Shown: piece after piece, positions 4,234-43,317 of the stretch
Numbering within the stretch: position 1 is the first letter of the stretch
Layout: every line of letters starts with the position of its first letter
From: a virus
DNA length: 43,898 bases
Virus record (IMG/VR): IMGVR_UViG_3300031730_000010
Location: 1-43,898 of that record
Strand: one strand, 5' to 3'
Notes under the pieces: model-generated
Database searches by the model: none
What the model was told of the DNA's origin: nothing
Seen by the model: only the letters and a program-made list of their open reading frames with translations
Program-made: the position numbers and the translations under genes

Positions 4234-4481
4234 ACATTCAACTTCTTTCTTTCCGTGATGCAGTTTTTGAGGATATATTGGGTATTGCCGACCGAGCCGT
4301 TTTCTTCAGTAAGGCTAGAAGCAAGGGTAATGGCTTTGCGATCTTCTTTCACTAACCAGCCGACAGAGTGGCAAATGGCGGGGGTATGGTCGATGGAGTC
4401 AGTCCAAGCGCCGTTAGCGTGATGGTCCAACCAGATAATGCGTAAAAGCGGGCGGGCTGCGCCCTTTGGAGGCTTTCGCAA
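4230..4481 (-). CDS. Hypothetical 83-aa protein
   Basis: The frame starts with TTG at 4481 after a GGGG stretch and ends by ATGA overlap with the next gene. The product begins with a basic segment, followed by LLRIIWLDHHANGAW, CHSVGWLVKED and further residues. It resembles small phage proteins that share the phrase SVGWLV, whose function I do not know. The 85 bases between this start and the exonuclease stop (4482-4565) hold an open frame without a usable start codon. Confidence 0.6.
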   Translation of the reverse strand: MRKPPKGAARPLLRIIWLDHHANGAWTDSIDHTPAICHSVGWLVKEDRKAITLASSLTEENGSVGNTQYILKNCITERKKLNV

Positions 4482-4565
4482 TGTAAACCCCGTTAATGAT
4501 GTGCGATATGGTGCCGGCGTTGGTGTTCTTTGCGATGGGGGCGGTGTTCAGCTCGATACTCGCGG

Positions 4566-5309
4566 TTAGCTTAATTCTTTTATGGCCGTACCGCTGAACC
4601 AGGTGCCGCAGTCCTGACAGTGATAGCGTTGATAACGCCGAGAACGAGCAACCGAAACGCCGCGGCGCTGGATATTTTTGGAAAGACAGGTAGGACAACC
4701 ATGGGCACCATTGAAGACCCTGAAATCGGGAAGTTTGGCCCATGGTTTGAGGCGCTCATAAACGCGAACCAGGAGGGTGACATCCTGCGCATTATATCGA
4801 CGCATTCGTCGCCAGGATTTGGCATTACCCTCTACACAACCACGCCAGAGTTCGGCCCCCGTATTCGGTATTTTCCGGCCGACTCCGAAATAACGGCCGA
4901 GATTATCAAGCTTATTGCTGTCAAATTTGAATGTTCGCCTGGCGAGCTTGAGGGTATCTATCGTTTTGAAGGGGGCAGGTGGCTTAAAACCGTGGACGGC
5001 TAGTCGCGCGTTGATTTTCTTCAGGTCAAAGGAGTCGCCGTTATGAGCAACGACTACATCAGCCTCATCAAGTATTTTCCACAGGTCAGCGACCAGCTGG
5101 GCGTCATCGTGCTTGTTCTTCTGGTAACGCGGGTAGTCGGGAAGACAATAGGTTTTTACGGCCTTCTCGCCCGCCCACTGGACGGCAAATCCTAATATGA
5201 AGGTGTCTCTTTCAACCCAAACGGCATTGGCTTCAAAGAGGGTCCATACGGTGGCAAGGATCGGAGCGGTTTCTATATCTATGAACGCGACTCTCGGTCC
5301 TTCGCTCAA
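4566..5309 (-). CDS. DnaQ-like 3'-5' exonuclease fused to a zinc ribbon
   Basis: This 247-aa protein has an RNase H-like/DnaQ fold. Motif I is DIET (11-14, D11 and E13), motif II is HNGDSFD (89-95) and motif III is YNAQD near residue 172, the usual DEDD metal ligands. The C-terminal ~45 residues form a zinc ribbon with CPTC and CQDC, resembling ribbons of some transposases. It starts with TTG (5309), overlapping the previous stop as TTGA, with GGAG six bases upstream. It may trim DNA or RNA ends; being in the late block after lysis genes is unusual. Substrate is unknown. Confidence 0.8.
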   Translation of the reverse strand: MSEGPRVAFIDIETAPILATVWTLFEANAVWVERDTFILGFAVQWAGEKAVKTYCLPDYPRYQKNKHDDAQLVADLWKILDEADVVVAHNGDSFDLKKINARLAVHGFKPPAPFKTIDTLKLARRTFKFDSNKLDNLGRYFGVGRKIPNTGAELWRGCVEGNAKSWRRMRRYNAQDVTLLVRVYERLKPWAKLPDFRVFNGAHGCPTCLSKNIQRRGVSVARSRRYQRYHCQDCGTWFSGTAIKELS

Positions 5310-5464
5310 TCTTTCTCCCGAAAAAGGTAATCATAAATATGGATGCAATACCAAATCAGGGCAGCTCCCGCGGCAGCTTCGGGCAGAAGACCGCCGAGGG
5401 ACCCAAGGACCGCCATCAATGAAATCCAATCTCCCGCCACTATAAGATGATGGTGCGAGTCCAT
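5306..5464 (-). CDS. 52-aa membrane protein, holin-like
   Basis: A 52-codon frame starts with ATG at 5464, sharing a base with the preceding stop (TGATG), and ends by TTGA overlap with the exonuclease. The middle of the protein is hydrophobic: SLMAVLGSLGGLLPEAAAGAALIWYCIHIY, two short segments separated by LPEA. This resembles small phage membrane proteins of holin or holin-accessory type. It sits three genes after two other membrane proteins and the endolysin, so it probably belongs to the lysis block. Confidence 0.65.
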   Translation of the reverse strand: MDSHHHLIVAGDWISLMAVLGSLGGLLPEAAAGAALIWYCIHIYDYLFREKD

Positions 5465-5676
5465 CACTCACCACAACGGAAATGAAGGCATGTCCCATGG
5501 ACGACTTCGGTTTTATAGCCGCGATGCTGATTATAATGGGTGTTGTGCTTATGCTTTGCTTGCGCTATTAGGCGCTGTTGAATGAGCGGGGCTAGAACGT
5601 GTAGCCCCGCCGCATTCAATTCGAGCACAGGTCCGATTGCCGTTAGAATGGCAAGGACCACCGCCAAGCTAACCAT
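5464..5676 (-). CDS. Small protein with N-terminal membrane segment, spanning a long hairpin
   Basis: This 70-aa frame is coupled at both ends by TGATG overlaps, which supports translation. Residues 1-24 form a hydrophobic segment (MVSLAVVLAILTAIG...), and the rest is His-, Lys- and Gln-rich. The coding DNA contains a long inverted repeat (5578-5619) and, on the plus strand, a 24-codon hydrophobic frame (5497-5571). The C-terminal half looks less protein-like than its neighbours. It may be a small secreted or spanin-like protein, but no motif confirms that. Confidence 0.5.
   Translation of the reverse strand: MVSLAVVLAILTAIGPVLELNAAGLHVLAPLIQQRLIAQAKHKHNTHYNQHRGYKTEVVHGTCLHFRCGE
5578..5619. 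other. Long hairpin (two-part stem)
   Basis: GCGGGGCTA (5586-5594) pairs perfectly with TAGCCCCGC (5602-5610) around a seven-base loop. After a small internal loop, TTGAATG (5578-5584) pairs with CATTCAA (5613-5619). The total is 16 base pairs. Neither strand is followed by a T run, so it is not a standard intrinsic terminator. It lies inside an open frame of the lysis region and could slow transcription, protect mRNA or act as a two-way pause. Confidence 0.7.
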
Positions 5677-5978
5677 CAGCCCGCTACGACATGAGCGCCG
5701 TTGCTCATCATCATCTGCTGAGTGGCCGGGGGCAGCGCCGCAAAGGCCGAAGCCGTGACGGTCGGGCCAATCACCACATTCGGGTTATTGGCCGACGAAG
5801 GGGCCTGGTCATGGTGAAACAGGTGCAGCGGGTCGAGCGCATCCTGCCCCGCGGCGGTTTTCATGCCGGCCAGGACGGTGGTGGCGCCAGCGCCAATGAT
5901 GACCTGCTGAAGAATGTCGGAGCTCGACGGAATCAGATTGCCGAGGTCACCAACAATGCCTGTGAGTGCAATAGCCAT
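5676..5978 (-). CDS. Hypothetical 100-aa late protein
   Basis: AAGGAGG lies eight bases before ATG 5978; an ATG at 5984 is too close to that site. The protein begins MAIALTGIVGDLGN and is rich in A, T, S, N and M, with a moderately hydrophobic stretch around residues 24-45. It contains HLFHHDQAPS and ends with QMMMSNGAHVVAG. It lies between membrane genes of the lysis block. No family is recognised. Confidence 0.7.
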   Translation of the reverse strand: MAIALTGIVGDLGNLIPSSSDILQQVIIGAGATTVLAGMKTAAGQDALDPLHLFHHDQAPSSANNPNVVIGPTVTASAFAALPPATQQMMMSNGAHVVAG

Positions 5979-5997
5979 TTTCATTTCCTCCTTGGGG

Positions 5998-6186
5998 TTA
6001 ATCGAGAACGTTGGTTTCTTGCACCACCATTGCGACGATGCCGAAGAAACCGATAGCCATAGTCGAGATATTATGTGCCCAACTATCCGCAAAGGGCACA
6101 TTGAAGGCGAGCAGTAAGGCCGCAAGTCCGGCATAGGTTGACGGCTCGCGGCCCCGAGCAATCAGCCACCTTAAAACATTTTTCAT
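5998..6186 (-). CDS. 62-aa membrane protein, candidate holin
   Basis: ATG at 6186 overlaps the previous stop as ATGA; a longer open frame further upstream is not supported. Two transmembrane segments are visible, about residues 17-33 (TYAGLAALLLAFNVPFA) and 42-56 (TMAIGFFGIVAMVVQ), joined by a short loop, with a basic N-terminus. This is the size and shape of a class II holin. It is immediately downstream of another membrane gene and the endolysin. Confidence 0.65.
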   Translation of the reverse strand: MKNVLRWLIARGREPSTYAGLAALLLAFNVPFADSWAHNISTMAIGFFGIVAMVVQETNVLD

Positions 6187-16949: not shown

Positions 16950-17134
16950 TCAAAGACCCAGCGTCCATCACCCTTATAGACAAGTCGGGTGGGGTTATCG
17001 GTGAAATGTGGGCGTGTCGGCCCCTCCCATTGGCATTCTAGTGCCTTGCATGGGCCGTCCTTGTATTGCATGTTATAGTCGTCAATGGTCCCGCGGTAGC
17101 AGGTGCGATCACCGCAGGGCATTTGTCGCTTCAA
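16940..17134 (-). CDS. Hypothetical 64-aa protein
   Basis: This small frame overlaps the end of the XF1762-like gene by 26 bases and the start of the adaptor by 10. It contains three Cys (PCGDRTCYRG, CKALECQW) and an aromatic C-terminus (LVYKGDGRWVFEWH). The internal start MPCGD would shorten the overlap. No family is recognised. Confidence 0.55.
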   Translation of the reverse strand: MKRQMPCGDRTCYRGTIDDYNMQYKDGPCKALECQWEGPTRPHFTDNPTRLVYKGDGRWVFEWH

Positions 17135-17561
17135 ATAAGAGTTTTTTCTGCAATGGTGCCTTATCGACGCGCGGACGATCCACTCGCGACCACGAACCGC
17201 CGCCAGCCTCTCCGATGAGTCGCCAATTGGCCGCGGTTAGCGATGTGCCGGGTTCGCTGGCAAGAATGTACGTCCCTATGCGCTTGAACCCGAGAGCAAA
17301 AGCCGCACGCGCGCTGGCTCCATAGAGGAACGAACATGCGTTGCGCGTGCCATCCGTGCAGAGCCGCGTTACTTCCGCGGTAACGCCATCATCCCGCATA
17401 CGCGATACTGGCCGGCCGACTATAGCAACGCCAATAATCTTCCCGTCACTTGCTGCACCCAGCGAAAATAAATGGCCTATAACCGGCTTATGATGCCGAT
17501 GGAGCGCGGCGACGAAGGCATTAGCCTCGCCCAAACTGACGCGCTCTAGCGTGAGCTTCAT
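17109..17561 (-). CDS. XF1762-like GNAT-fold protein
   Basis: This 150-aa protein matches the XF1762-like family that I know from phages: an N-terminal HRHHKPVIGHLFSLGA, then GKIIGVAIVGRPVSR, EVTRLCTDGTRNACS, and a C-terminal YILASEPGTSLTAANWRLIGE. It is related to GNAT N-acetyltransferases, but the family's substrate is not established. It overlaps the upstream gene by 41 bases. Confidence 0.75.
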   Translation of the reverse strand: MKLTLERVSLGEANAFVAALHRHHKPVIGHLFSLGAASDGKIIGVAIVGRPVSRMRDDGVTAEVTRLCTDGTRNACSFLYGASARAAFALGFKRIGTYILASEPGTSLTAANWRLIGEAGGGSWSRVDRPRVDKAPLQKKLLFEATNALR

Positions 17562-19232: not shown

Positions 19233-19604
19233 TTAAAACTCCTGGACGACGTGCGTCACGAACCCAGCCTGGCTGGTCGAACCAACGGTAAGAATGACAT
19301 CGCCGGGATTCAGAAATACGGATGCCGTGCTAGTGATAGTAACCGGAGATCCGAGCGTCCCCGTAGTGGTCGTGACGCTGGTGCCGCTACTGATAACGGT
19401 AGCCGTGGCAGAGCCGGCCAGGAACGCCAGAACGTCAAAGCCTGTGACGTTTGTCGAGGTGCCGGCATTGTTGGGCGCAAACCATCCGGCCACATACTTG
19501 CACCGACCCACCATGACGGCCGTGCTGACGGGAGCACCGGAGCTTGATGTGGTTGCGACACTGTAAGTGCGGGTTCTAAAAGGATAGAGCTGAGCTAAAG
19601 CCAT
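19233..19604 (-). CDS. Beta-rich virion protein
   Basis: This 123-aa product is Thr/Ser/Val-rich (TSSSGAPVSTAVMVG, SGTSVTTTTGTLG) and predicted to be all-beta. GGGAGG lies before the ATG. It fits a decoration or head-fibre protein. No family is recognised. The 64 bases upstream (19605-19668) hold no gene. Confidence 0.65.
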   Translation of the reverse strand: MALAQLYPFRTRTYSVATTSSSGAPVSTAVMVGRCKYVAGWFAPNNAGTSTNVTGFDVLAFLAGSATATVISSGTSVTTTTGTLGSPVTITSTASVFLNPGDVILTVGSTSQAGFVTHVVQEF

Positions 19605-19668: not shown

Positions 19669-20388
19669 TTAATAGAAGTCGCGCCGATTAGCCCAATGCG
19701 CGAGCTGGTATTCCATATCATCCATCGCACCAACTAGGTGCGCGGCTTCTTTGGATTTCTTGTCGATTTCCTGCTGCAAGGTAGAAACGCGATGCTGTAA
19801 CTCAAGCTTGCGAGCATAGTATTTGCGCCACTGACGAGAGGATTCACAATAACCATATAATGGCGCTGGCTCCAGAATGTCGGACTCAGGAGGAACAACG
19901 AGCTCAATGTCCTTGTCAAGAATTTTAGTAATAAAGTACTGACAGGCGAGCCGTTGCTGGTTGTATTCACTATTTGCCGCCATATCGACACCATAGATGC
20001 CGATAGCTACTGGATTCTGCTCGATGGCTAAAGCGATCATGTAAGAAAGCTGTGAGGTCCACCAAAATGGACCGTACTTCTCGAACATCTCCTTGAGTGG
20101 ATATTCCTTGGAGTTGGGAAAGTCCGGGTATTGTTTTTGCATGTAGACGAGTGGCTGAAGCTTGAGATACTCCAGCCACTCAGTCAGTCCTTCGCGTCTT
20201 TTAACGTCGAGATTGTGCAACTCAAACCAGACATCACATCGCCCTATTCCCTTGTTTGCAGGGCTACACGCCCAGATTTCCCATTCGGGATCTTGCAGGG
20301 GGGCAAAGTGAACTGAGGAAATTGCAGAACCAAGAATCGCTATCTTGCGATGCTTGGGGGTAAAATCCTGTTCGGTATGATCCGACAC
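19669..20388 (-). CDS. Rossmann-like protein resembling DUF115/MptE-like domains
   Basis: This 239-aa protein starts at GTG 20388 with AAGGAG five bases upstream. An N-terminal KIAILGSAISSVHFA suggests a nucleotide-binding loop (residues 14-28), followed by WEIWACSPAN. The later stretch FWWTSQLSYMIALAI...VAIGIYGVDMAA resembles the GVD-containing region of DUF115/MptE-like and GT42 relatives, some of which transfer nonulosonic sugars to proteins. The last 50 residues form a coiled coil. Similar proteins occur in other phages; enzymatic activity is not established. Confidence 0.55.
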   Translation of the reverse strand: MSDHTEQDFTPKHRKIAILGSAISSVHFAPLQDPEWEIWACSPANKGIGRCDVWFELHNLDVKRREGLTEWLEYLKLQPLVYMQKQYPDFPNSKEYPLKEMFEKYGPFWWTSQLSYMIALAIEQNPVAIGIYGVDMAANSEYNQQRLACQYFITKILDKDIELVVPPESDILEPAPLYGYCESSRQWRKYYARKLELQHRVSTLQQEIDKKSKEAAHLVGAMDDMEYQLAHWANRRDFY

Positions 20389-20402: not shown

Positions 20403-20936
20403 TTAGGTTGACGTGGTGGTCGTAAACGCGATAGCGCCGGCGCCGATGGACATGCCCGTCACTTGCCACGCCGAGGTGGAAAGTGAAATCAGATCAATGT
20501 AAGCCGAGTTTTGGCCGAGCAAGGTCTGAAGACGTGGCACGATTGTATTGGTCGAGGTGCCGGTGGTGTAGATTTGGCAACTAGCGCTCGAGCTAGAGAT
20601 GATCTGAAAGCCCGTGCTAGTCGAAGTGGCGCCCATCATAATGCTTTTATAAATACCGGCCGCCGGAGGGGCTGGCATGATATTGACTCCCCCGGTAGCC
20701 GCTGCGGTTATGATGCTCGTCCCATACGGAAGGAGAGACGGAAAGATTGTCCCCGCCCCTGTCGCCGTAGTGACAGATTGGACCGCGCCCTGTGCAGATG
20801 CGGCGCCAAGTGTCGTCATATACTTCTTGTTGGCGCTGTTACTGTGTACGATTGCAAGGTCGGTGGACCCCATAACCGTGGTCGTGGTACTGGTTAACAG
20901 TACCTCATTTTGTTCGAAGACAGTATAAAAAGACAT
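20403..20936 (-). CDS. Ser/Thr-rich virion protein beside the capsid gene
   Basis: This 177-aa protein has long runs of S and T (TSTTTTVMGSTDLA, SSSSASCQIYTTGTSTN) and predicted beta structure. It lies directly downstream of the major capsid gene in transcription, where capsid decoration proteins are often found. Start ATG with GGGGG upstream. No named family is recognised. Confidence 0.65.
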   Translation of the reverse strand: MSFYTVFEQNEVLLTSTTTTVMGSTDLAIVHSNSANKKYMTTLGAASAQGAVQSVTTATGAGTIFPSLLPYGTSIITAAATGGVNIMPAPPAAGIYKSIMMGATSTSTGFQIISSSSASCQIYTTGTSTNTIVPRLQTLLGQNSAYIDLISLSTSAWQVTGMSIGAGAIAFTTTTST

Positions 20937-20951
20937 TATGACCCCCTATGA

Positions 20952-21929
20952 TTACGAGGTCGTCAGGTCGGTGACGAGGCCGGAGCCCTTTTCGTTGCGA
21001 GCCTCCAAGGTGTACTCCGACAGGATCATGCGGCGAACCGAGTCACCCGTCTGAGACAGTGGCACCGAAACCATGCGGCGGCCATTGACGAAAGCAATGC
21101 CCCACAGGTCCATCTGGAACGTGAACACGTCACGCTGCCGGCAGAAGCGGTTCGGAACCACTTTCAGGGTGCCGAAGTCCGACTCATAGGCGTCAACTGC
21201 CGCCACAATCTTCTTGCTGGCGGCCTGCTCGATGGGCGAGCTGCGGCCGGTGAAGGTCGAGAAGACCTGCTTATTGAAGCTGCCGGTCATGATGAGGTCG
21301 GGCTTGCCGCCGTTCACCCACACCGCCTGAAGCACGTTCTTCAACTGGGCCTCAGTAAAGGCGCGCTGGGTGCCGTTGGTGCGAACGCCCGAGCCGTCCG
21401 AGCCTGTCGGATCGACGCCCGTGGTGGCACCGGTCGACACGCTGGTATTGCCTTTAGCGCCAACGCCGATCCAAGACAGGACCGAACCCAGATGCCGCAC
21501 GGCTGTATCGGAGCCGGTCGTGCTGCCCCACGTCGAGGCAATCAACGAACCCTCCATGTCGCGTTTCAATTCTAGCCCTTTAAGCATCTCCTGGTAGGCC
21601 ATTTCGTTTCCACGCCCGGCGTGGTCAACAGCCTGCTGGGTGCCGGAAACCATGGGCACCTTGCGCGAGATTTGCGCGATGTTGCTCAAGCGAGCGGTAA
21701 CGGTCGTGGCATCTGCCGCGGCGTCGTCGCCTTCAAGCACTGCGTTGGTGGTCTGCGCGGTGGCAAGGGCCTGTGTCTGCCATTCGTGCTTGACGGCGCT
21801 TGCTTTGGCCTTTTCGGCGCCCGACAAGAAGGGAGTTTCAGTCGGGTCAATTCTGTAAATAACGTCCGCGAGATCTTCGCGGTTGCCGATGGCCTCATAC
21901 GAAGCCAGGGCATTGCTGGGGAGAGACAT
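20952..21929 (-). CDS. Major capsid protein, SU10/DUF5309 type
   Basis: This 325-aa protein begins MSLPSNALASYEAIGNREDL and continues VIYRIDPTETPFLSG, then HEWQTQAL. These phrases mark the DUF5309 / SU10-type capsid family (HK97 fold). The centre and C-terminus follow the family pattern (LIMTGSFNKQVFSTF, RDVFTFQMDLWGIAF). A scaffold-like gene precedes it, as expected. AAAGGA lies upstream of the ATG. Length is typical of the family. Confidence 0.9.
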   Translation of the reverse strand: MSLPSNALASYEAIGNREDLADVIYRIDPTETPFLSGAEKAKASAVKHEWQTQALATAQTTNAVLEGDDAAADATTVTARLSNIAQISRKVPMVSGTQQAVDHAGRGNEMAYQEMLKGLELKRDMEGSLIASTWGSTTGSDTAVRHLGSVLSWIGVGAKGNTSVSTGATTGVDPTGSDGSGVRTNGTQRAFTEAQLKNVLQAVWVNGGKPDLIMTGSFNKQVFSTFTGRSSPIEQAASKKIVAAVDAYESDFGTLKVVPNRFCRQRDVFTFQMDLWGIAFVNGRRMVSVPLSQTGDSVRRMILSEYTLEARNEKGSGLVTDLTTS

Positions 21930-30167: not shown

Positions 30168-31412
30168 TTAAATCATATTGCCGGTGATTAAAGGAATCAA
30201 GCCGCTTTCTAAGCGGCGTTGAATATCAATCTGGTATTCAGGCTCACGCTCGATTAAAATTGCGTGACAGCCTTCATTCAATGCGGCCTGTCCTGTAGTG
30301 CCAGAGCCAGCGAATGGATCTAGTATTGTTCCGCCCTTGGGGGTCACTAGGCGGATAAGATATTGCATGAGTTTGAGCGGTTTGACGGTCGGATGCTTAG
30401 ATCCATTGCGTTCGGCCTTGGAGGCTTTGGCACAATAGAAGAAGCGAGCGGCAGAACCGGAGTCGCCATAATCCCATTCCCCGTCCAACTTCTTAGGACG
30501 CGAACCGTAAATCTGATTGGGCGCCTTGATACTCGATCCCCTCAAAATACCAGACTGTGTATCAGGAAACCCATCCACCACTTCCTCGCTGCCGTCGTGG
30601 AGGATATTGGCGGGCCACCTACCAACCTCAGAACCAACGTAGGTAGTATTTCCCCCAACGTCTCCAGTCTGCCACGGCCGCTTACCATTGCCAAAACCAC
30701 CCGAGCGCTCGTCACTTGCTGGAATGCGCGCGCCGTCGATATTCAGCGCCCCCGTTCCCCACTTCAGCACATTGGCCGCCACTGTCTTTTCCGATAGCGG
30801 CTTGCGGGCGAGGACAATCGGTTCGCATGCGGGCTTTAGCGCCGTGCCCCAGCCTTGCCATTGGCGAGCAGCGTCGGTGGCTGGAGCAGTGATATCCGGC
30901 AACCCATTAAGTTCACGAGTAGGATCATGACAGAAACGACGTCCTTTTCCGCCGCTGGTATTCTCGGGCGAAACATATTTTCCGACAACCTGCCGCTCCG
31001 CTCCCGCCGCCCGATCAATCCCCTTGCTCACGTCATGCGACTTCGGGAAGCCTGAGCCATACACCCACATGATCGTGTCGCGTATCTCAAAGCCCGCATC
31101 CTCAATGGCGCAGGCCATGCGGTGATAAGTGCGAGTGCCCCCGAAGGCGAGTAGATGGGCGCCGGGCTTCAATACTCGATAGACTTCGGCCCATGTCTCA
31201 GGACGAAAGGCTATGTCGCCGCCATCCCATTGCTTGCCCATGAAGCCAACCGCCGCGCCCTTTGTGCCGGCGTATCGCCCTGGAAATGCACTGCGCGTCG
31301 TGGCAACCTGACTGGTCAAATGATACGGCGGATCGGTCACGCATGCGTCTAGGCTGTTTTCGGTCAGGGTCGGCAATATCTCAAGACAATCGCCGCTCTT
31401 CAGATCAATCAC
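30168..31412 (-). CDS. Site-specific DNA methyltransferase (DPPY type)
   Basis: GTG 31412 overlaps the previous stop as GTGA, giving 414 aa; a TTG 21 bases upstream is less likely. DPPY (27-30) is the catalytic motif of N6-adenine and N4-cytosine methyltransferases. FGGTRTYHRM and the C-terminal HPTVKPLKLMQYL and LDPFAGSGTTG complete a beta-class order (catalytic motif first, SAM motif last). A central ~200-residue region should recognise the target. No restriction endonuclease is nearby, so it is a solitary enzyme, probably shielding phage DNA. Confidence 0.9.
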   Translation of the reverse strand: MIDLKSGDCLEILPTLTENSLDACVTDPPYHLTSQVATTRSAFPGRYAGTKGAAVGFMGKQWDGGDIAFRPETWAEVYRVLKPGAHLLAFGGTRTYHRMACAIEDAGFEIRDTIMWVYGSGFPKSHDVSKGIDRAAGAERQVVGKYVSPENTSGGKGRRFCHDPTRELNGLPDITAPATDAARQWQGWGTALKPACEPIVLARKPLSEKTVAANVLKWGTGALNIDGARIPASDERSGGFGNGKRPWQTGDVGGNTTYVGSEVGRWPANILHDGSEEVVDGFPDTQSGILRGSSIKAPNQIYGSRPKKLDGEWDYGDSGSAARFFYCAKASKAERNGSKHPTVKPLKLMQYLIRLVTPKGGTILDPFAGSGTTGQAALNEGCHAILIEREPEYQIDIQRRLESGLIPLITGNMI

Positions 31413-31576
31413 TTGTGCCTGAAATAATCGCAAACTGCGGACGGGGAAATCTTGCCAGTAACAGTGCTACAAGAATCGGGTTTGATAAACATGACGCAAA
31501 TCGAGCAGTGTCGCCCTTGCGACCCCTTGCGATAAGCCGCCTCGTCTTTGCTGGCTTTGGTCTTAAGGCCCAGCAT
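31409..31576 (-). CDS. 55-aa four-Cys protein, HiPIP-like spacing
   Basis: ATG 31576 shares a base with the preceding stop (TAATG); the stop overlaps the methyltransferase start. The four Cys residues are C24, C27, C36 and C49 (CSIC, C-x8-C, C-x12-C). They sit in HCSICVMFIKPDSCSTVTG and KISPSAVCDYF, the arrangement of high-potential iron-sulfur proteins and their small phage relatives. It could hold a [4Fe-4S] cluster or zinc. Role in the phage is unknown. Confidence 0.7.
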   Translation of the reverse strand: MLGLKTKASKDEAAYRKGSQGRHCSICVMFIKPDSCSTVTGKISPSAVCDYFRHK

Positions 31577-32202
31577 TATGCCCAGCCATAATCGGAAAAG
31601 GCGTCATGGGGTATGCGCTCGACCGGAACGCCAAAGACCTCCAGATGCCCGGTGGATTCGCCCTTTTGGGCAAAGACCCGCGGATCAATATCGCCATTTT
31701 TAGGGTAGCCGGCCGCTTGCCAGGCCTTCAAGAGGCGCTCGACTCTATGATGCGTCACAATCCCGGGTATCTCGTCGTTGGCGCGCAATAGATTGTAAAG
31801 GCCGCCAAACAAGCGTGCCTTAAATGTATTGAACGCCTCGCCCCCCGGAACCTTTTTGCCGGGTTGCTTCTCTGCCATCTCGGTGAGAATGGGGACGCTC
31901 TCTTGGCTCGATGTGCCGGCGTATTTCCCTACGTCCCAAGGTCTGAAGGACTTGGTGACAAGCTCCAATGGAATGCCGGATATCTTGGAAATAATAACCG
32001 CGGTTTCTTTGGCCCGAATCAGGTCAGAGGCAACCAGATAGTCGGGTCCAGCGCCCTTGAGGCGCTCGCCGAGCTTGGTAGCCTCCTTACGTCCTATTTC
32101 ATTCAGCGGTACGTCTTTCCAGCCCCTGATTTTATCGCCCGAACTATCGGTTTTGTTTAATGCCGTGCAGCCATGCCTGATAATAACAATAGGGCGCGAC
32201 AT
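31576..32202 (-). CDS. Histidine phosphatase superfamily protein
   Basis: This 208-aa protein has RHG (9-11) as the phosphohistidine motif, LNEIGRKEATKLGERL typical of the phosphoglycerate-mutase branch, an SDLIRAKETA motif, and IVTHHR with the second catalytic His. It should remove phosphate from small molecules or proteins. The substrate is unknown. It sits between the terminase and the methyltransferase in the head region, where related phages sometimes carry such a gene. Confidence 0.85.
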   Translation of the reverse strand: MSRPIVIIRHGCTALNKTDSSGDKIRGWKDVPLNEIGRKEATKLGERLKGAGPDYLVASDLIRAKETAVIISKISGIPLELVTKSFRPWDVGKYAGTSSQESVPILTEMAEKQPGKKVPGGEAFNTFKARLFGGLYNLLRANDEIPGIVTHHRVERLLKAWQAAGYPKNGDIDPRVFAQKGESTGHLEVFGVPVERIPHDAFSDYGWA

Positions 32203-37125: not shown

Positions 37126-37329
37126 TTATCGCGGACGCAACAAACGGTCCGCTAAAACCCGAGCGGCGTCTTTGCCTCTTGCCAGGTTGACCCGATCCGT
37201 CAAAGTTCCATCAGGTTTCTTAACCCGCCACATTTTAGGCCATGCGGAGTCTTCCACGACAGCAAATCCGGTATATTTCTTGAAATACATCAATCTATTC
37301 CCCTTCCAATGGAAACGGTCCTCAGGCAT
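37126..37329 (-). CDS. Hypothetical 67-aa protein at the end of the sugar cassette
   Basis: ATG 37329 overlaps the cytidylyltransferase stop by eight bases. The product (MPEDRFHWKGNRLMYFKKYT, then KMWRVKKPDGTLTD) is basic and beta-like, with RVNLARGKDAARV near the end. No family is recognised. Between it and the next gene (37053-37125) there is only a 24-codon frame with weak support. Confidence 0.55.
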   Translation of the reverse strand: MPEDRFHWKGNRLMYFKKYTGFAVVEDSAWPKMWRVKKPDGTLTDRVNLARGKDAARVLADRLLRPR

Positions 37330-37966
37330 TTTTTACCCTTTCATGGGCCGCCAAGGTGGCAGCTAAGGAATAATCATACGGTCCAGCAGCGTCGATTGCC
37401 CGCACCAGATCCAGATCCTCCTGAGTGTCCACCGAGAAATTTAAATCCTGAACCCCGGGAACCGGGCAAAGAATGGGGAGTTTGCTGAATGTGTTGCCGC
37501 GCTTCATAAAGGGCGAAACATGCTCGCGATCGTAAGGCTTTTCGGCCAGTTTATGGGTCCATTCCAAACACTCCCGGCTGAATACTTCGCATCCCATGCC
37601 CCTTGGATATCCTGTGGTTGAGTTTAAATCGTTTGCAACATAATCGTGCAAACCTACACAATAGACTTCTAAGGCTCGCTGGCAGGCTTTAGGGTCGATA
37701 AGGGGGCAATCACCGGTCACCCGCATAATCGCATCCAGAGCGTTCCTACGGGCACTGAAGGCATATCTGGCGAGCACATCGTCCTCGTGGCAGTCATAAT
37801 CTTCGGGAAAGGCAAAAATTGCCTCAAGACCCACCGATGCCAGCCGAGTCTCGATATGCCACAGCATGGGCTTGCCGCCGATCAGGGCCTCGATCTTTCG
37901 GGGGAGGCGGGTTGAGCCCAGTCGCGCTTGAACGATGCAGCCTATTCGCATAGCTGACGCGACCAT
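37322..37966 (-). CDS. Cytidylyltransferase (SpsF/acylneuraminate type)
   Basis: This 214-aa protein has the nucleotide-binding signature CIVQARLGSTRLPRK (10-24), then KPMLWHIETRL, ALDAIMRVTGDCPLIDP and YDREHVSPF. This is the family of SpsF and CMP-sialic/CMP-pseudaminic acid synthetases (PseF, NeuA), which join CMP to a nonulosonic sugar. It comes last in the cassette after the dehydratase, two aminotransferases and the NeuB-like synthase. A second ATG at 37951 could be the true start. Confidence 0.82.
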   Translation of the reverse strand: MVASAMRIGCIVQARLGSTRLPRKIEALIGGKPMLWHIETRLASVGLEAIFAFPEDYDCHEDDVLARYAFSARRNALDAIMRVTGDCPLIDPKACQRALEVYCVGLHDYVANDLNSTTGYPRGMGCEVFSRECLEWTHKLAEKPYDREHVSPFMKRGNTFSKLPILCPVPGVQDLNFSVDTQEDLDLVRAIDAAGPYDYSLAATLAAHERVKNA

Positions 37967-38154
37967 TCTAGAATCTGCGCGTCGTTTGCCAGAATCTCAC
38001 GATGTTCCGCTGCCGCCTCTGCGGGGTGAAGCGCATAGGCACAAATCACTACGGCCAAGGTATTGTCCGCCGTGCCCAGGCTTTTAAGCTTTTCGTAGCG
38101 CGCCTTATTGGCCATCCTGAGATGCTCGATATGATATAGGGCTAAGCGGTTCAT
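37942..38154 (-). CDS. Hypothetical 70-aa protein in the sugar cassette
   Basis: ATG 38154 overlaps the upstream stop as ATGA; the end overlaps the cytidylyltransferase gene. The product is helical with His and Glu residues (MNRLALYHIEHLRMANKARY, then ALHPAEAAAEHREILAND). No known family. The tight coupling suggests it serves the same pathway or is a small partner. Confidence 0.55.
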   Translation of the reverse strand: MNRLALYHIEHLRMANKARYEKLKSLGTADNTLAVVICAYALHPAEAAAEHREILANDAQILEWSRQLCE

Positions 38155-38708
38155 GTCAGAGCGTTCCAGTCTGTGGGCATGAGGTCTGGATAGTGGTCGG
38201 GCGGAACAGTCTGATCGGCGTTGTGGCGGGGCAAACTAGCAAGCCTGACATGCAGGGCCGCGGCGACATCGGACGGCATCCAGCAATGCATCCCAAGGCC
38301 GGCGCCGTCGCGGGTCATTTCACGCATCTCGGCCCAGTCGTCAAATTGGTCGCACAGGATGGCACCGCCGCGGGTGTGCCCCAAGATTTTCTTAAAGTGG
38401 AAGCTTACGCAAGTGAACGTGCCGGCTTTATACATCCCTGCATAAAACCTGCGCGCCGAATCCCAGATGGGTGTCGGGCGTAATTGGTATGCGCCCACCC
38501 ACTCCCGGTCTTCGATATAGACCTGCGCCCCCGCCCGCCTAATGGCTCTCGGAACACCGCGCCAAGTATAGCGCGGGATGCTCGCCTCTTTGACTTTCAG
38601 GTATCGACAAACAAGCTCGATGGCATTGGTGCAGCTGTCGGTAAGAACGACATATCGCGCATTCGTGTACTGGCTTAATGCATCTTCGAATTCTGCTTGA
38701 GCAATCAT
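38151..38708 (-). CDS. Short DegT/DnrJ-like aminotransferase
   Basis: This 185-aa protein has the DegT/DnrJ/EryC1/StrS pattern: LTDSCTNAIELVCRYL (residues ~22-38), WDSARRFYAGMY, and VSFHFKKILGHTRGG with the candidate PLP lysine at about residue 105. Full-length enzymes are about 370 aa, so this is roughly half length. It could pair with the second DegT-like protein (40243-41007) or act alone on a sugar. In the PseC role it would aminate the 4-keto sugar produced by the dehydratase. It begins one base after the dehydratase stop. Confidence 0.72.
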   Translation of the reverse strand: MIAQAEFEDALSQYTNARYVVLTDSCTNAIELVCRYLKVKEASIPRYTWRGVPRAIRRAGAQVYIEDREWVGAYQLRPTPIWDSARRFYAGMYKAGTFTCVSFHFKKILGHTRGGAILCDQFDDWAEMREMTRDGAGLGMHCWMPSDVAAALHVRLASLPRHNADQTVPPDHYPDLMPTDWNALT

Positions 38709-38709
38709 G

Positions 38710-39564
38710 CTAATCGCTCCATGGGTCTAGCGACCAATTGTCGAGGGCGGCCCTCAGTTCATCGATCGACATGCGCCGAGCGTCCTTGCTACAACGTCCC
38801 TCGCACATGCTTTCGTGCATCTTTTCCCATTCCGGTAGCCCGATCACGTTTTGTTCGGCACCCATGGCAACAGCCAGATCGCCAAGGCGGTGGGCTGGAA
38901 GCTCCGGAATAAACGTTTCTCCCCCCTTCATTGTGTCGATACCTCGATCAACAAGGTCCAGCGCCTCCCGCATGAGCATAAAAAAACGTGTGCAGTCGGG
39001 ATTTGTAACCGGGACAATGCGGGAACCACTGGCAAGGATACTTCGCCAGATTGGAAGGACGGACCCGGCACTTCCCCAGACATTCCCGTACCGCGTGACC
39101 GCAAATTTAGTCCCTCCTGGAGAGTTCGCGGCGAGGAAGATGCGTTCGGCAATGGCTTTGCTTTGTCCGTACGGACTGATCGGCTGAAACGCCTTATCAG
39201 TCGAAAGAGCCACCACTTTCTTAACTCCGGCATCTCGCGCGGCTTCGGTGACATTGATTGCGCCCTCTATGTTGGTGCGTACCATTTCGACAGGGTTATA
39301 GTGTCCAACTTCGATCCTCTTGAGCGCGGCCGTATGAACGATAACGTCCACGCCTTCGCATGCCCTCGTGAGCCGCCATCTATCACGCACATCCCCAATA
39401 AAATACCTGACTCTGGGGTCATCAAGCAGCTTTGCCAGCTCTGCCTGGCGGTGCTCCCCGCGGGAATAGATGCAGATCCGTCCATACCCAGTCCCCTCCA
39501 GCAGCCTTTTCGCAAATGCAGTCCCGAAAGACCCTGTCCCCCCAGTAACGAGAATAGATTTCAT
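38710..39564 (-). CDS. UDP-sugar 4,6-dehydratase (PseB/FlaA1-like)
   Basis: This 284-aa extended short-chain dehydrogenase has GGTGSFGTAF (8-17) as its NAD(P)-binding loop, LSTDKAF (D123, K124) and YGQSK (Y132, K136). That Asp-Lys-Tyr set marks the PseB/FlaA1 family of UDP-GlcNAc 4,6-dehydratases (inverting or not). The reaction makes a UDP-4-keto-6-deoxy hexose, the first step of pseudaminic or legionaminic acid synthesis. It overlaps the NeuB-like gene by four bases. Confidence 0.85.
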   Translation of the reverse strand: MKSILVTGGTGSFGTAFAKRLLEGTGYGRICIYSRGEHRQAELAKLLDDPRVRYFIGDVRDRWRLTRACEGVDVIVHTAALKRIEVGHYNPVEMVRTNIEGAINVTEAARDAGVKKVVALSTDKAFQPISPYGQSKAIAERIFLAANSPGGTKFAVTRYGNVWGSAGSVLPIWRSILASGSRIVPVTNPDCTRFFMLMREALDLVDRGIDTMKGGETFIPELPAHRLGDLAVAMGAEQNVIGLPEWEKMHESMCEGRCSKDARRMSIDELRAALDNWSLDPWSD

Positions 39565-40250
39565 CTATGTGCCAGCTTGCAAAGCAGCTCCATTGTTGGC
39601 GGATCGGCGGAAAAGGCTGCGTCAATGCAGTCGTCATTAATCTTGAAATGCTTTTCGATCATGCGGACTCCCGCCCGAATGAAACCCAGGGGAACAGCGA
39701 TGCCTGCGGTATGGTCCGAAAACCCATACATCCAATCGGGATCAAAGCGGCGCAGCGATTCCCAAATTTCAGAATTATTCGGAGGGTGACCGGGGGGGCA
39801 AACCATCGCCAGCGTATTAGTAAAACTTTTTAGGAATGTTCCGTCCCATACGTTCGATACGATTAAGGGGATGTGCTTCGGTATTGCTTCATAGATTGCG
39901 TCACGCACTTTGGCGTCTAATGGAGTACTTCCCGGCGCCGCTATTTTAAAGTAAGGCACGTCGAACTTCAGCAATGTTTCGACCGCGCGGACGCTGAAGA
40001 CGCTAGCGAACAGGCCAATACAACAATCGTACGCCTGATCAAATAACTCCGGCAACCATTCATCCGGCACCATCAGCTTGCGATATATGGCATCGTTGTC
40101 GCCTTCGTGCCGGTCGGGCATGTCCTCGGGGCGGTAGAATTGGAATTTAGCGTAATCGCAGCCACAGTCGGCCGCCGCTATAATCAGGTGTCTGGCTTTG
40201 TTTAGTGAACCGCCATGGTTGCCCGATATCTCAGCTACGATCTCAACCAT
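39561..40250 (-). CDS. NeuB/PseI-like sugar-acid synthase
   Basis: This 229-aa protein begins VEIVAEISGNHGGSLNKA (barrel strand 1) and continues DYAKFQFYRPEDM. A later strand carries SDHTAGIAVPLGFIRAGVRM and IEKHFKI. These are the signatures of NeuB and PseI, which condense phosphoenolpyruvate with an amino sugar to form a nonulosonic acid. It lacks the C-terminal SAF domain and is near the minimum barrel length (full enzymes about 340 aa). GGGAGGATTC precedes the ATG. Confidence 0.82.
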   Translation of the reverse strand: MVEIVAEISGNHGGSLNKARHLIIAAADCGCDYAKFQFYRPEDMPDRHEGDNDAIYRKLMVPDEWLPELFDQAYDCCIGLFASVFSVRAVETLLKFDVPYFKIAAPGSTPLDAKVRDAIYEAIPKHIPLIVSNVWDGTFLKSFTNTLAMVCPPGHPPNNSEIWESLRRFDPDWMYGFSDHTAGIAVPLGFIRAGVRMIEKHFKINDDCIDAAFSADPPTMELLCKLAHR

Positions 40251-41007
40251 GAATCCTCCCGATGATCTTGCACGCCTCTTTGATCCTGTCCTCGTCGTAG
40301 TCTTCGGCGAGGGAGAAATTGATTACCGTATCGCCGAATTTATTGGTGCCCTCCAGCGGCTGATAGTTTGTGCCCACATCATGCCCCATTCGGCGCAGTG
40401 CCAATACGATGGCATCACGTTTATTGGTGCGCCGCATGACCCGCCATGGGATGACCTGCTCGGCAGATATCCTTGTGAGCATGTCGCCCAAATGCCGGTC
40501 CCATAATGCCACCTTCTCAAACTTGGTAATCTTGGCGCGCAAAAAGAACTTGAGGCTGGTCCGCAAGAGCGCCGTGACTTCATCGGTCTCGCTGAATGGC
40601 CAATGCCCCAGGGGCTCTATTTCCTCGGCCAACCCTTGATCGTTGGTCAGGAAAGCCCCACCGTGGCCGATGCTAATGAACTTCTTGGCACCAAAGCTAA
40701 CGACGCAGGACGTGGCTTGTGGCGGGCGTCCCCAGCCGGTCATAAGCGGATCTAACTCTATGGCCGAGAAATCCGCCGCTTGACGATAGCCATAAAGATG
40801 CACCGGAGCCTTACACAGTCCGGTTTCTTGGTCAGTCTCGATGCCCCTCACCATATCGCTGATTGATGGACAGATATTCTCGGGGGTATCGAAAGACGTT
40901 GCGTGCGCGGCCCACAAATAAGACCGCATGGCATCTCGCGCCCTTGGAAATAGCACGGCGTATTTATAGCCCATCGGATTGGCCAGCTCGTCATCAGCCC
41001 AGCTCAT
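40243..41007 (-). CDS. Short DegT/DnrJ-like aminotransferase (second)
   Basis: This 254-aa protein contains VVSFGAKKFISIGHGGAFL, the lysine-containing region of the DegT/DnrJ/EryC1/StrS family, with the catalytic Lys near residue 109. It is shorter than the ~370-aa family norm, having lost part of the first domain, but retains C-terminal residues (NKRDAIVLALRRMG). The start overlaps the WbqC-like stop by four bases. It may transaminate a keto-sugar or act with the other DegT-like protein. Confidence 0.75.
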   Translation of the reverse strand: MSWADDELANPMGYKYAVLFPRARDAMRSYLWAAHATSFDTPENICPSISDMVRGIETDQETGLCKAPVHLYGYRQAADFSAIELDPLMTGWGRPPQATSCVVSFGAKKFISIGHGGAFLTNDQGLAEEIEPLGHWPFSETDEVTALLRTSLKFFLRAKITKFEKVALWDRHLGDMLTRISAEQVIPWRVMRRTNKRDAIVLALRRMGHDVGTNYQPLEGTNKFGDTVINFSLAEDYDEDRIKEACKIIGRIHG

Positions 41008-41687
41008 GCAATACTCCCGCTATGTTCAATGATGGGCCTCGCTCCCGGGCCGAGACGAAATAGCAAATCAATGACGGATAGCCGCCCGTCATTCACTCGC
41101 ATATCTTGCCCATAAACCGGTTGATTGAATTTCTGCCAGCGGTGCGTAATGCCGGCTTCTTTCATTTGTTCTTCTTGCGGATAATGAATGTAGGCCAAGG
41201 CGCCTTCGTTGGAGAGATATTCGGTCGCCCCGACCGCTTTGCACATGGCGATGATCTTCTCAATGGCATCCCCCTCGAAATGCCACTGCGCGCCACCGAC
41301 CATCTGTGTTTTGATGTTCAGATAATCCGCAATCATACTAATCAGACTGCAATTGAGCGAAGACAAAAATCGCCATTCGAATTCCAGAATTTTTTTCAGC
41401 TCAGGAAAGAAGTCGTCAAAGAATCGAAAGCCCTCATAGGCCTTTTCGATTGCTTTCACATGTTTGCGTCGCCAGCGCCCATCGGCGATTGTTACCTGGT
41501 TTATTTGGTCGCCAAAAGTCTTGTGGACCGGCACAATCAATTCACAGGTGCGAATGAAGTTATGAGAGTGCCAGGACTTGGATTGGTACTGCAAATGCCC
41601 GCAGTGCATGAATACGTCCGACAATGTTATTTTGTTGAATAGCTGGATGCCGGGGAGGTAACATGGCTGGTGGCCGGACAAAATCAT
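41004..41687 (-). CDS. WbqC-like protein
   Basis: This 227-aa protein begins ILSGHQPCYLPGIQLFNKI (residues 2-20), the HQP..LP signature of the WbqC family. This family occurs in polysaccharide and glycan biosynthesis clusters and has been linked to amino-sugar modification; its reaction is not settled. It starts only four bases after the tRNA 3' end, without an upstream ribosome-binding site. It is the first sugar gene of the cassette. Confidence 0.78.
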   Translation of the reverse strand: MILSGHQPCYLPGIQLFNKITLSDVFMHCGHLQYQSKSWHSHNFIRTCELIVPVHKTFGDQINQVTIADGRWRRKHVKAIEKAYEGFRFFDDFFPELKKILEFEWRFLSSLNCSLISMIADYLNIKTQMVGGAQWHFEGDAIEKIIAMCKAVGATEYLSNEGALAYIHYPQEEQMKEAGITHRWQKFNQPVYGQDMRVNDGRLSVIDLLFRLGPGARPIIEHSGSIA

Positions 41688-41691
41688 ACGG

Positions 41692-41763
41692 TGCCGGGGG
41701 GTGGATTTGAACCGCCGCCCTTCTCCTTACCATGGAGGTGCTCTACCACTGAGCTACCCCGGC
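41692..41763 (-). tRNA. tRNA-Thr (anticodon GGT)
   Basis: A 72-base cloverleaf: acceptor GCCGGGG (41763-41757) pairs with CCCCGGC (41699-41693). The D arm is GCTC-AGTGGTA-GAGC. The anticodon arm CCTCC-ATGGTAA-GGAGA has anticodon GGT, with only the outermost pair mismatched (C/A). The T arm GGCGG-TTCAAAT-CCACC has one internal C/A mismatch. The discriminator is A, and CCA is not encoded (CCG follows). It lies between the 53-aa gene, whose stop is adjacent, and the WbqC-like ATG, so it must be cut from a polycistronic RNA. Confidence 0.88.
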
Positions 41764-41925
41764 TTATTTGTAGTAACTCAAAACGCGGTCCATGGCGTCT
41801 ATGAGCTCCTGGTCGTCCGGCCATCCGAGAGTGGTGTCTTTTGCACTCTTCAAGAACTTTCGACTCCGCCTCAAAGTCTTGATTGTAATTCTTTCGGCTT
41901 GGTCGTCATGGACTTCGATCTTCAT
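41764..41925 (-). CDS. Hypothetical 53-aa protein before the tRNA
   Basis: ATG 41925 overlaps the methyltransferase stop as ATGA and the stop TAA is at 41766-41764, directly adjacent to the tRNA. The product (MKIEVHDDQAERITIKTLRR, then LGWPDDQELIDAMDRVLSYY) looks like a folded charged protein. No family is recognised. Confidence 0.65.
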   Translation of the reverse strand: MKIEVHDDQAERITIKTLRRSRKFLKSAKDTTLGWPDDQELIDAMDRVLSYYK

Positions 41926-42428
41926 GGGTGCGCCTCCACAATCCAGCTACGAAAACAGTCCTCGCCCGGCAGGTGAGAGTGGGCGCTTCCGATTTTTACC
42001 TGCGAAAACATCTTCAACATTGCGACCAGATCATACTCACTGGCCAGGCGGGTAAACTCCTTGCCCTCCTTGACACGCTCCGAAGTATTCAAGGTCGGAC
42101 AGATGGAGAAGAACACTCCGTCAGGCTTCAACCAGCTTTTGATTTTCTCGAATGGTGGTCGGTCGACGTGGCAAAGCGTGTTGATGTCGTAGATGCAATC
42201 AAAGCCTGGGTCGAAATCCACGTCCCGAATGTCATCGCAAAGGTAGGCGTCAGCTTCCGGGTCCTTGTCTATGGTGACAACGTGGAAGCCCCTGAACCTC
42301 AATTCACGGGCATTGGCGTCCTCGCCGCTGCCGATGTCCAAAAATACCCCGTCCCATTCAGGGAATCTCCGCGCCACAAAACGCATCAGATTGTTGTCCG
42401 GCGTTTGCCGGCCGTGTTTCCAGGTCAT
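41922..42428 (-). CDS. Class I SAM-dependent methyltransferase
   Basis: This 168-aa protein has FLDIGSGEDAN (residues ~29-39) as motif I for SAM binding, and the HVVTIDKDPEADAY loop following it, then DCIYDINTLCHVDRP and WLKPDGVFFSICP as motifs IV-V. The fold is clear; the substrate is not. Being directly upstream of the sugar cassette, it could methylate a sugar or glycan, but it could also belong to the replication block. It overlaps both neighbours by four bases. Confidence 0.82.
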   Translation of the reverse strand: MTWKHGRQTPDNNLMRFVARRFPEWDGVFLDIGSGEDANARELRFRGFHVVTIDKDPEADAYLCDDIRDVDFDPGFDCIYDINTLCHVDRPPFEKIKSWLKPDGVFFSICPTLNTSERVKEGKEFTRLASEYDLVAMLKMFSQVKIGSAHSHLPGEDCFRSWIVEAHP

Positions 42429-42907
42429 GCCTGCCTCTTGAGCTTCGCCAGGATTTCGGCGCGGCGTTCCGGGGTGAGGGAAACGATTTCAGCGGTGGGC
42501 GTGGGCGGGAAGTCCTCCCAGCGGTCATTGTGCAGCCAAGTGCTGGCAAGAAGGATGAACTGCTTTTCGGTCTTGGCCATCGCGGAGGCATAGGCGGCCG
42601 AGGAGGAAATCAGGAGCTCTATATCGACGCGTTTCGCCGCGGAACAAAATTTCCGGAAGCTGCGCTTCTTGTCTTGGTGCCTTGGGTAGGCGAGCCAGAA
42701 ACGATCAAACCCCTCGGACAGCCTCTTGTCCCGGGACAGGGGTTCTTTCTTACTTATAGAAGTAGATATAGAAGAAGATATACCTCTGTCCCGGGACATT
42801 TGCCTAAGCCTCTGTTTCCGTTCACGTTCATACGTTTTTTGGCTGTCCCGGGACATTGTGGCGGAAGTTAGTGCCCCGAGGACGAAGGCATACTCAAATG
42901 GTGTCAT
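42425..42907 (-). CDS. Replication-initiator/replisome-organiser-like protein
   Basis: This 160-aa protein has a low-complexity N-terminal region with three copies of SRD (residues 19-21 and later), and a C-terminal domain. The latter runs FDRFWLAYPRHQDKKRSFRKF (from ~residue 67) to LLASTWLHNDRWEDF, a pattern of phage replication proteins that help load the host helicase. The gene carries three TGTCCCGGGACA palindromes and an AT-rich segment, comparable with the origin inside lambda's O gene. No polymerase or helicase gene accompanies it. Confidence 0.72.
   Translation of the reverse strand: MTPFEYAFVLGALTSATMSRDSQKTYERERKQRLRQMSRDRGISSSISTSISKKEPLSRDKRLSEGFDRFWLAYPRHQDKKRSFRKFCSAAKRVDIELLISSSAAYASAMAKTEKQFILLASTWLHNDRWEDFPPTPTAEIVSLTPERRAEILAKLKRQA
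42727..42855. repeat. Candidate replication origin: three 12-bp palindromes and AT-rich stretch
   Basis: TGTCCCGGGACA occurs at 42727-42738, 42787-42798 and 42844-42855, starting 60 and 57 bases apart. The 48 bases between the first two are only about one-third G+C by hand count, in a GC-rich genome. All three copies use the same TCC-CGG-GAC codons. The pattern fits initiator-binding sites flanking a DNA unwinding element within the initiator gene. Confidence 0.65.
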
Positions 42908-43317
42908 GATTGACGGTCTAGCGCCGAGCGGCCGATAAGCGGATCACCGCAGAATTCGGCGGTATAATCACGGTGGCCGGCCGAAAGGGCACGCTCGCGT
43001 TCGGCAAGGGTCTCAGACGACGGCCTGTGGCCGGGGGTGACAAACGTAAACTGATGAAGGGCGCGCGGCTTCCGCACGTTGGGATTAATCTTTTTGCCTC
43101 CCTGCGCTCCTCTCTCTTTGCGCGCGGCCCAGACATAGCGCGGATTGAGCTTATTGAACGTGTTTCCCCAGCGATGGTGGCGGGTCGCTATCGAGGAGAA
43201 ACCGCGATCGATTTCCGTGGAAATCCTGCGATAAATACTCTGCATTGGCTCGCGCAAACGATACTCGGCAAGGAGGCGTGCCGCCGTCTGTATTTCGCCC
43301 TCTGTCCATCTACTCAT
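42904..43317 (-). CDS. Myb/SANT-like DNA-binding protein
   Basis: This 137-aa protein has an N-terminal helical domain beginning MSRWTEGEIQTAARLLAEY, with W4 and an EI.TAARLL helix typical of Myb/SANT-type DNA-binding folds. The second and third helices are near residues 22-52 (SIYRRISTEIDRGFSSIATR). The basic C-terminus is Lys/Arg-rich. It sits between the Hjc-like nuclease and the replication-initiator-like gene; a transcription or replication role is inferred. It overlaps the next gene by four bases. Confidence 0.6.
   Translation of the reverse strand: MSRWTEGEIQTAARLLAEYRLREPMQSIYRRISTEIDRGFSSIATRHHRWGNTFNKLNPRYVWAARKERGAQGGKKINPNVRKPRALHQFTFVTPGHRPSSETLAERERALSAGHRDYTAEFCGDPLIGRSALDRQS

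Follow-up and report, generated by a model that had tools for sequence, protein, structure and literature searches.

The 43,898-base IMG/VR virus record analyzed here (the window, to which all positions without a record label refer) is the contig of a podovirus-like phage that encodes an SU10-type capsid and portal and a terminase with its closest database relatives in Microcystis, Pelagibacter (HTVC010P-like) and Rhodoferax phages. From 42428 to 37322, its minus strand carries a cassette resembling a pathway for a CMP-activated nonulosonic acid, with genes for an S-adenosylmethionine (SAM)-dependent methyltransferase (MT), a small protein (p53), a tRNA-Thr, a WbqC-like protein, a short DegT-like aminotransferase (DegT1), a NeuB/PseI-like synthase, a PseB-like dehydratase, a second short aminotransferase (DegT2), another small protein (p70) and an SpsF-type cytidylyltransferase. 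A putative transferase for the activated sugar is encoded beside the capsid gene (Table 1). A preliminary description made from the sequence had recognized the leftward chain, and all genes it named are open reading frames (ORFs) in the places given, on the minus strand; it missed p70, whose gene follows that of DegT2 and precedes that of the cytidylyltransferase. The family matches are far beyond chance: PseB, NeuB and WbqC match strongly and SpsF, DegT2 and MT clearly, and the marginal match of DegT1 is backed by its motifs VHLYGY and SFGxKK...GxGG, which are also kept in the viral contig L005. Neighbouring genes of the cassette overlap by up to 8 bases or lie at most 1 base apart; the exceptions are the surroundings of the tRNA and the 25-base overlap of p70 with SpsF.

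Table 1. Features of the cassette and of the capsid-linked locus (aa, amino acids; pLDDT, predicted local distance difference test score; S+T, serine plus threonine; PLP, pyridoxal phosphate).
Feature	Position	Strand	Length	Evidence
SAM-dependent methyltransferase MT, candidate sugar methylase	41922..42428	-	168 aa	PF13489 2.4e-10
p53	41764..41925	-	53 aa	ORF only, no family match
tRNA-Thr (GGT)	41690..41763	-		ARAGORN
WbqC-like protein, probable sugar-tailoring enzyme	41004..41687	-	227 aa	PF08889 1.1e-47; 58% identity to L005
DegT1, short DegT-like PLP aminotransferase	40243..41007	-	254 aa	PF01041 9e-4 (just under cut-off)
Mini NeuB/PseI-like nonulosonate synthase, TIM barrel only	39561..40250	-	229 aa	PF03102 8.5e-24, TIGR03586 1.5e-28
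PseB-like UDP-N-acetylglucosamine (UDP-GlcNAc) 4,6-dehydratase	38710..39564	-	284 aa	Polysacc_synt_2 3e-69, TIGR03589 1.4e-90
DegT2, mini DegT/PseC-like aminotransferase without C-terminal domain	38151..38708	-	185 aa	PF01041 1.2e-10
p70	37942..38154	-	70 aa	ORF; no family match; phage SAF profile does not match
SpsF/KdsB-type cytidylyltransferase, predicted CMP-sugar activation	37322..37966	-	214 aa	PF02348 (CTP_transf_3) 3.1e-12
Major capsid protein, SU10 type	20952..21929	-		PF17236 7.3e-92
Ser/Thr-rich protein, candidate acceptor, between capsid and transferase genes	20403..20936	-		Composition, 31.6% S+T
GT42/Maf-like putative CMP-nonulosonate transferase	19669..20388	-	239 aa	Predicted model, pLDDT 92.6
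Ser/Thr-rich protein, candidate acceptor, after transferase gene	19233..19604	-		Composition, 30.1% S+T

The predicted model of the NeuB-like protein (pLDDT 92.8, predicted template modelling score 0.91) has eight strands in barrel order and matches the solved structure 6ncs with Z 28.3 and both NeuB and PseI with Z 26.2. Structure prediction, which the preliminary description had proposed as a check, thus returned a NeuB-family barrel with its catalytic residues kept rather than an enzyme of an unrelated reaction, and an assignment as KDO8P or DAHP synthase was rejected (Z 18-19 versus 26-28 for the NeuB family). The roles of the phosphoenolpyruvate (PEP)- and metal-binding residues are well established for NeuB, and all of them (E25, K53, K129, H215, H236 and D247 in the numbering of the meningococcal enzyme) are present in the TIM barrel. 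Of the 47 phage NeuBs in the alignment, 28 are no longer than 265 aa; in these mini-NeuBs, the positions aligned with K53, H215 and H236 are kept in 28/28 and those aligned with E25, K129 and D247 in 27/28. The C-terminal SAF/antifreeze domain, which completes the active site, is absent from the window protein, and a SAF profile that matches 67 ORFs over all loci matched neither p70 nor any other ORF of the window as a split-off domain. Since the solved 290-aa NeuB 6ncs likewise ends soon after the barrel, the SAF domain is not strictly defining for NeuB. With 100 bits, the window protein stays under the curated TIGR03586 (PseI) cut-off of 340, which a relative in another contig (L011) exceeds with 426 bits. 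A quick tree requires two changes to account for the short form, which therefore appears to be an old, stable viral form.

In DegT2, the C-terminal small domain is absent, and proteins of this type mostly have 185-215 aa. Its profile matches 58 PDB sequences, nearly all of them DegT-type, and the alignment with solved DegT enzymes covers the PLP domain only, ending near residue 270 of about 390. Lys107, which forms the Schiff base with PLP, and the cofactor-binding Asp83 align with the solved enzymes and are invariant in 47 homologues. Mini-DegTs are rare in bacterial genomes: in one motif scan, which covered about 85,000 species genomes, six contigs of metagenome-assembled genomes stood out at E <= 1e-57, followed by one partial match at 5e-29 and others at 5e-11 or weaker. 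One of the bacterial contigs (L345) has phage-like genes, and another (L347) places the gene in a chromosome without phage-like neighbours. Flavobacterium phage immuto has a further homologue (L424 7986-8630) within a cluster of glycosyltransferases, beside an annotated pilin glycosylation protein. PseB aligns with FlaA1 (2gn4) at 1.4e-68, including the catalytic TDK and YGxSK motifs, and thus combines a short-chain dehydrogenase/reductase profile with the Asp-Lys/Tyr motif; its 304 bits are under the TIGR03589 cut-off of 408. The SpsF motifs IVQARxGSTRLPxK and TGDCPLIDP are kept in phage homologues. The unusual shortness of the enzymes, remarked upon in the preliminary description, is evident from NeuB and DegT2, and its suggestion of a streamlined pathway agrees with the recurrence of NeuB without SAF and DegT without C-terminal domain as viral forms in dozens of phage contigs.

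The seven-gene order MT-WbqC-DegT1-NeuB-PseB-DegT2-SpsF, which the preliminary description had suggested looking for in related phages, recurs in the diverged contigs L005/L060, L177 and L178, whose proteins share roughly 37-65% identity with those of the window, and the cassette is therefore a real, conserved unit. MT homologues stand first in the same order in L005 and in the related phages G004 and G005, and relatives of PseB at 57-65% identity are held by 12 viral contigs. Alignment scans found relatives of DegT2 in 568 viral stretches, of NeuB in at least 484 and of the transferase in 179, while a single-protein scan of viral contigs with WbqC gave no match. In 60 partly overlapping loci with PseB and DegT2, for which the partner counts are not independent, the partners were an N-acetyl-sugar amidotransferase (36), NeuB (34), a pseudaminate-methylase-like protein (32), a GNAT (27), HisF/WbuZ (20), SpsF (17) and a NeuA/PseF-like protein (16). 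In the NCBIfam search of sister cassettes, one WbuX amidotransferase and one PseI scored above the cut-off. A nonulosonic acid as product is well supported by these sequence comparisons because the relatives include PseI above cut-off as well as pseudaminate-type amidotransferases and methylases. The nonulosonate chemistry proposed in the preliminary description is supported by these relatives and by the fold and residues of NeuB, the PseB triad motif, the PLP lysine of DegT2 and the CTP-binding motif of SpsF. Resemblances to PseB, PseI and pseudaminate methylases point to the pseudaminic series; a cytidylyltransferase of SpsF type points to the sps route (PMC7439481).

PseG and PseH had been reported as unrecognized in the window, and this holds: a search that does match in control genomes gave no PseG in any of 44 phage records with the cassette, the window among them, and no GNAT was recognized among the ten window cassette proteins scanned. 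PseH-like GNATs are present in many sister cassettes, and the PseG-type hydrolase in cassette phages may be a host enzyme. In three contigs (L010 3822-5825, L011 3966-6002 and L014 3992-5998), a single long ORF joins SpsF with a class III aminotransferase, and these cassettes have a full-length DegT-sized gene instead of mini-DegT2. HNH endonuclease genes are inserted between cassette genes at L005 4806-5282, L007 3898-4371 and 6858-7382, and L004 4011-4505, hinting at cassette mobility. We found no earlier report of phage nonulosonate pathways or of WbqC function in the open-licence literature.

The transferase-like protein has no Pfam or PHROG match of note, and its assignment comes from the predicted model, which has the sialyltransferase/Maf_flag10 fold. 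CstII and Cst-I take places 1-14 in a Foldseek search (best E 3.7e-6), and in VIA-align the Maf structure 5mu5 is best with Z 10.9 over 160 residues, with CstII and its relatives at about 10. A profile comparison with the PDB puts a sialyltransferase on top at a non-significant E of 0.25. Invariant in the sequence alignment are G20, H58, E141, Y178 and a GVDM motif. On the basis of the modelled fold, but not of sequence membership, we class the product as Maf/GT42-like. The Maf enzymes, whose central domain is similar to CstII, O-link CMP-nonulosonates to Ser/Thr (PMC11339370). A degenerate-motif scan of bacterial genomes, which has limited sensitivity, gave 22 pattern matches and no relative among them, and a PF06002 search of 12 bacterial genomes matched nowhere, controls included. 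In Microcystis phage Mvi-Yong1342-1, a sequenced phage with a cultured host, a homologue (L425 11905-12708) is annotated as 'type 11 methyltransferase' and lies directly upstream of the terminase genes; this phage has no NeuB match. In L012, a tandem pair of GT42/Maf-like genes (4251-5102 and 5075-6001) stands between the capsid gene and PseB.

In the window, G001, G002, G004 and G005, the transferase gene follows the capsid gene with space for one small gene between them. In this space, G001 and G002 encode a homologue of the window product and G004 a Ser/Thr-rich protein; the product encoded after the transferase has homologues in G001, G004 and G005. These two neighbours are among the window's three most Ser/Thr-rich proteins (window mean 15% S+T), and the transferase neighbours in G004 rank 1 and 2 of 45. 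Over 79 transferase loci, neighbours have 17.7% Ser+Thr versus 13.7% for other genes (p 2e-7), although structural genes may be richer anyway. Among the 44 records, which were chosen for nonulosonate core genes, 28 contain transferase relatives (17/25 of those of at least 30 kb).

With a probability of roughly 55%, we propose that the phage encodes its own system for a nonulosonic acid of the pseudaminic, legionaminic or sialic type, which makes or tailors the CMP-nonulosonate and O-links it to the phage's own head proteins. PseB would convert UDP-GlcNAc to a 4-keto-6-deoxy sugar that DegT2 would aminate, and a hydrolase, host-supplied or unrecognized, would free the sugar for condensation with PEP by mini-NeuB. 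The resulting nine-carbon acid would be tailored by MT, WbqC and DegT1, a role that we infer from gene order alone, and converted to the CMP-sugar by SpsF. The GT42/Maf-like protein would then transfer it to Ser/Thr of head proteins, most likely the two flanking Ser/Thr-rich proteins, and the new virions would thereby be decorated, which might benefit them through stability, particle shielding or altered adsorption. Sequence and predicted structure support the enzyme families, the catalytic residues, the transferase fold, the gene linkage and the co-occurrence on which this scheme draws. The preliminary description had left the destination of the sugar open; because the GT42/Maf-like protein, which lies outside the region it covered, adjoins the capsid gene, our analysis favours virion decoration over mainly host-surface remodelling. 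More tentatively, and with the odds somewhat against it, the same may apply to widespread environmental tailed phages, which would then have self-contained nonulosonate glycosylation with SAF-less NeuB, DegT without C-terminal domain, a PseG-free route and a capsid-linked GT42/Maf-like transferase decorating Ser/Thr-rich head proteins.

Several observations weigh against virion decoration by a phage-encoded pathway. With PseG and PseH unrecognized, the pathway is incomplete on its own, and G005 (44.8 kb, a length like that of the window) has MT-WbqC-DegT1-SpsF and the transferase without NeuB, PseB and DegT2; synthesis and transfer are therefore separable, and phages of this kind would obtain the sugar from their host. 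The transferase is absent from 16 of the 44 cassette records, and its Ser/Thr-rich neighbours are uncharacterized proteins. Among 26 TerL-ascertained records of at least 20 kb, 16 have both transferase and NeuB, three the transferase only, none NeuB only and seven neither (Fisher 1.8e-4), which speaks for a link between the two, but the TerL seeds were drawn from transferase or NeuB loci; seed choice and shared descent weaken this co-occurrence, and with correction for the tree it loses significance (2-3 informative pairs, too few). Furthermore, thiamin pyrophosphokinase (TPK, Z 10.3) and HPPK (Z 9.6) nearly match Maf in the structural comparison, over shorter lengths, the transferase profile is co-linear with seven bacterial Maf domains but only weakly similar (E 0.007, probability 5%), and PF06002 (CST-I) and PF01973 (Maf/MptE) match 0/66 transferase homologues. 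The scores of TPK and HPPK and the lack of a sequence-level Maf or CST-I match would suit an unrelated metabolic enzyme of pyrophosphokinase type (MptE/HPPK/TPK), linked to the cassette by hitch-hiking of phage modules, as would MptE-like names among the BFVD matches of the protein. We consider this improbable: CstII and Cst-I fill the top 14 Foldseek places, the aligned length is 143-160 residues for Maf and CstII but about 120 for TPK, and the gene co-occurs with, and often adjoins, nonulosonate genes.

The gene content of G005, the absence of PseG from all 44 records and the Microcystis phage with a transferase homologue but no NeuB match could also mean that the phage tailors or re-activates a host nonulosonate by MT, WbqC, DegT1, SpsF and the transferase, with PseB-DegT2-NeuB merely raising the flux. 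Such partial salvage would be in keeping with virion decoration, the sole difference being the origin of the sugar; it seems rather unlikely for the window, which, like G004 and L005, has a three-gene synthesis block with catalytic residues kept that pure salvage would not need. A different destination, namely modification of lipopolysaccharide, capsule or flagellin to block superinfection or change a receptor, has precedents in the Acinetobacter prophage genes epaA/epaB, which convert pseudaminic acid in the A. baumannii capsule (PMC12053666), and in capsule nonulosonates modified by phage acetyltransferases (PMC6586298); the glycosyltransferase cluster around the short DegT2 of phage immuto fits it as well. 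Nevertheless, the window genes that were scanned include no recognizable flippase, polymerase, acyl-carrier or other glycosyltransferase, and the sole transferase-like gene belongs to the head module, a position that it shares across five related phages. No integrase was recognized among the proteins scanned either, and a lytic lifestyle would give little time for surface remodelling, which makes host-surface modification unlikely. The length of the short enzymes and their missing SAF and C-terminal domains might suggest decoys, or remnants that are decaying or have lost catalysis; this is very improbable given near-invariant catalytic residues in 28 mini-NeuBs and 47 mini-DegTs, intact frames in diverged phages and the confident barrel fold.

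The proposed virion glycosylation system has parts in common with several known ones. As in the pseudaminic pathway (PseB, C, H, G, I, F), a PseB-like dehydratase, a DegT aminotransferase, a PseI-like synthase and a CMP-transferase occur in one operon, whereas PseH and PseG are not recognized in the window, NeuB lacks SAF, DegT2 lacks its C-terminal domain and the cytidylyltransferase is of SpsF rather than PseF type. The legionaminic sps pathway of Bacillus subtilis, whose sugar decorates the spore surface, likewise uses a dehydratase (SpsM), an aminotransferase (SpsC), the NeuB-type SpsE and the cytidylyltransferase SpsF (PMC7439481), but the phage lacks SpsD and SpsG counterparts and has compact phage-borne genes with an additional WbqC, methyltransferase and second DegT. 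With Maf flagellin glycosyltransferases and GT42 CstII, the phage transferase shares the predicted fold, the linkage to nonulosonate genes and Ser/Thr-rich candidate acceptors; unlike them, it has no Pfam-level similarity, consists of a single short domain with a long C-terminal helix and has its gene next to that of the phage capsid instead of flagellin.

Phage-encoded virion glycosylation is already known. The sugar of the archaeal virus HRPV-1 is supplied by host machinery, and mycobacteriophages, to our knowledge, glycosylate their virions without a nonulosonic acid pathway of their own; the present phage would itself make or tailor the activated sugar. As cited in PMC12691614, mycobacteriophages provide a case of virion glycosylation in tailed phages (Freeman et al. 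2023). HRPV-1 has legionaminic acid in its virion glycan (Kandiba et al. 2012, cited in PMC10866085) and is thus a prokaryotic virus with a nonulosonic acid on its particle, but it infects archaea, whereas the genes described here are in a phage. In the open-licence literature, we found no report of phages that make an activated nonulosonate and have a dedicated transferase beside the capsid gene. If the proposal is true, many environmental phages display sialic-acid-like sugars, with a bearing on virion stability, adsorption, grazing and immune recognition, and their head proteins are predicted to carry a specific sugar mass. The short NeuB and DegT forms would then represent functional enzymes of reduced size, and the transferase could serve as a compact tool to attach nonulosonic acids to proteins.

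A tRNA-Thr within the cassette is also found in G005 (CGT, at the same place) and L005 (TGT); tRNA-Thr genes with GGT, CGT and TGT anticodons lie in or beside the cassettes of the window, L341 (6694-6770) and L005 (8179-8254). The candidate acceptors flanking the transferase gene are Thr-rich. Threonine codon usage in the window singled out no codon need fitting the tRNA anticodon; ACC, which is read by the GGT anticodon, is the commonest Thr codon. Elsewhere in the window, 17109-17561 weakly resembles the Mom family of DNA-modification proteins (PF25680, E 0.006, under cut-off), and 30168-31433 encodes an N6/N4 DNA methyltransferase. A histidine-phosphatase-family protein with a possible sugar-phosphate role is encoded near the portal gene in the window (31576-32202) and near the cassette in G004 (42715-43296).

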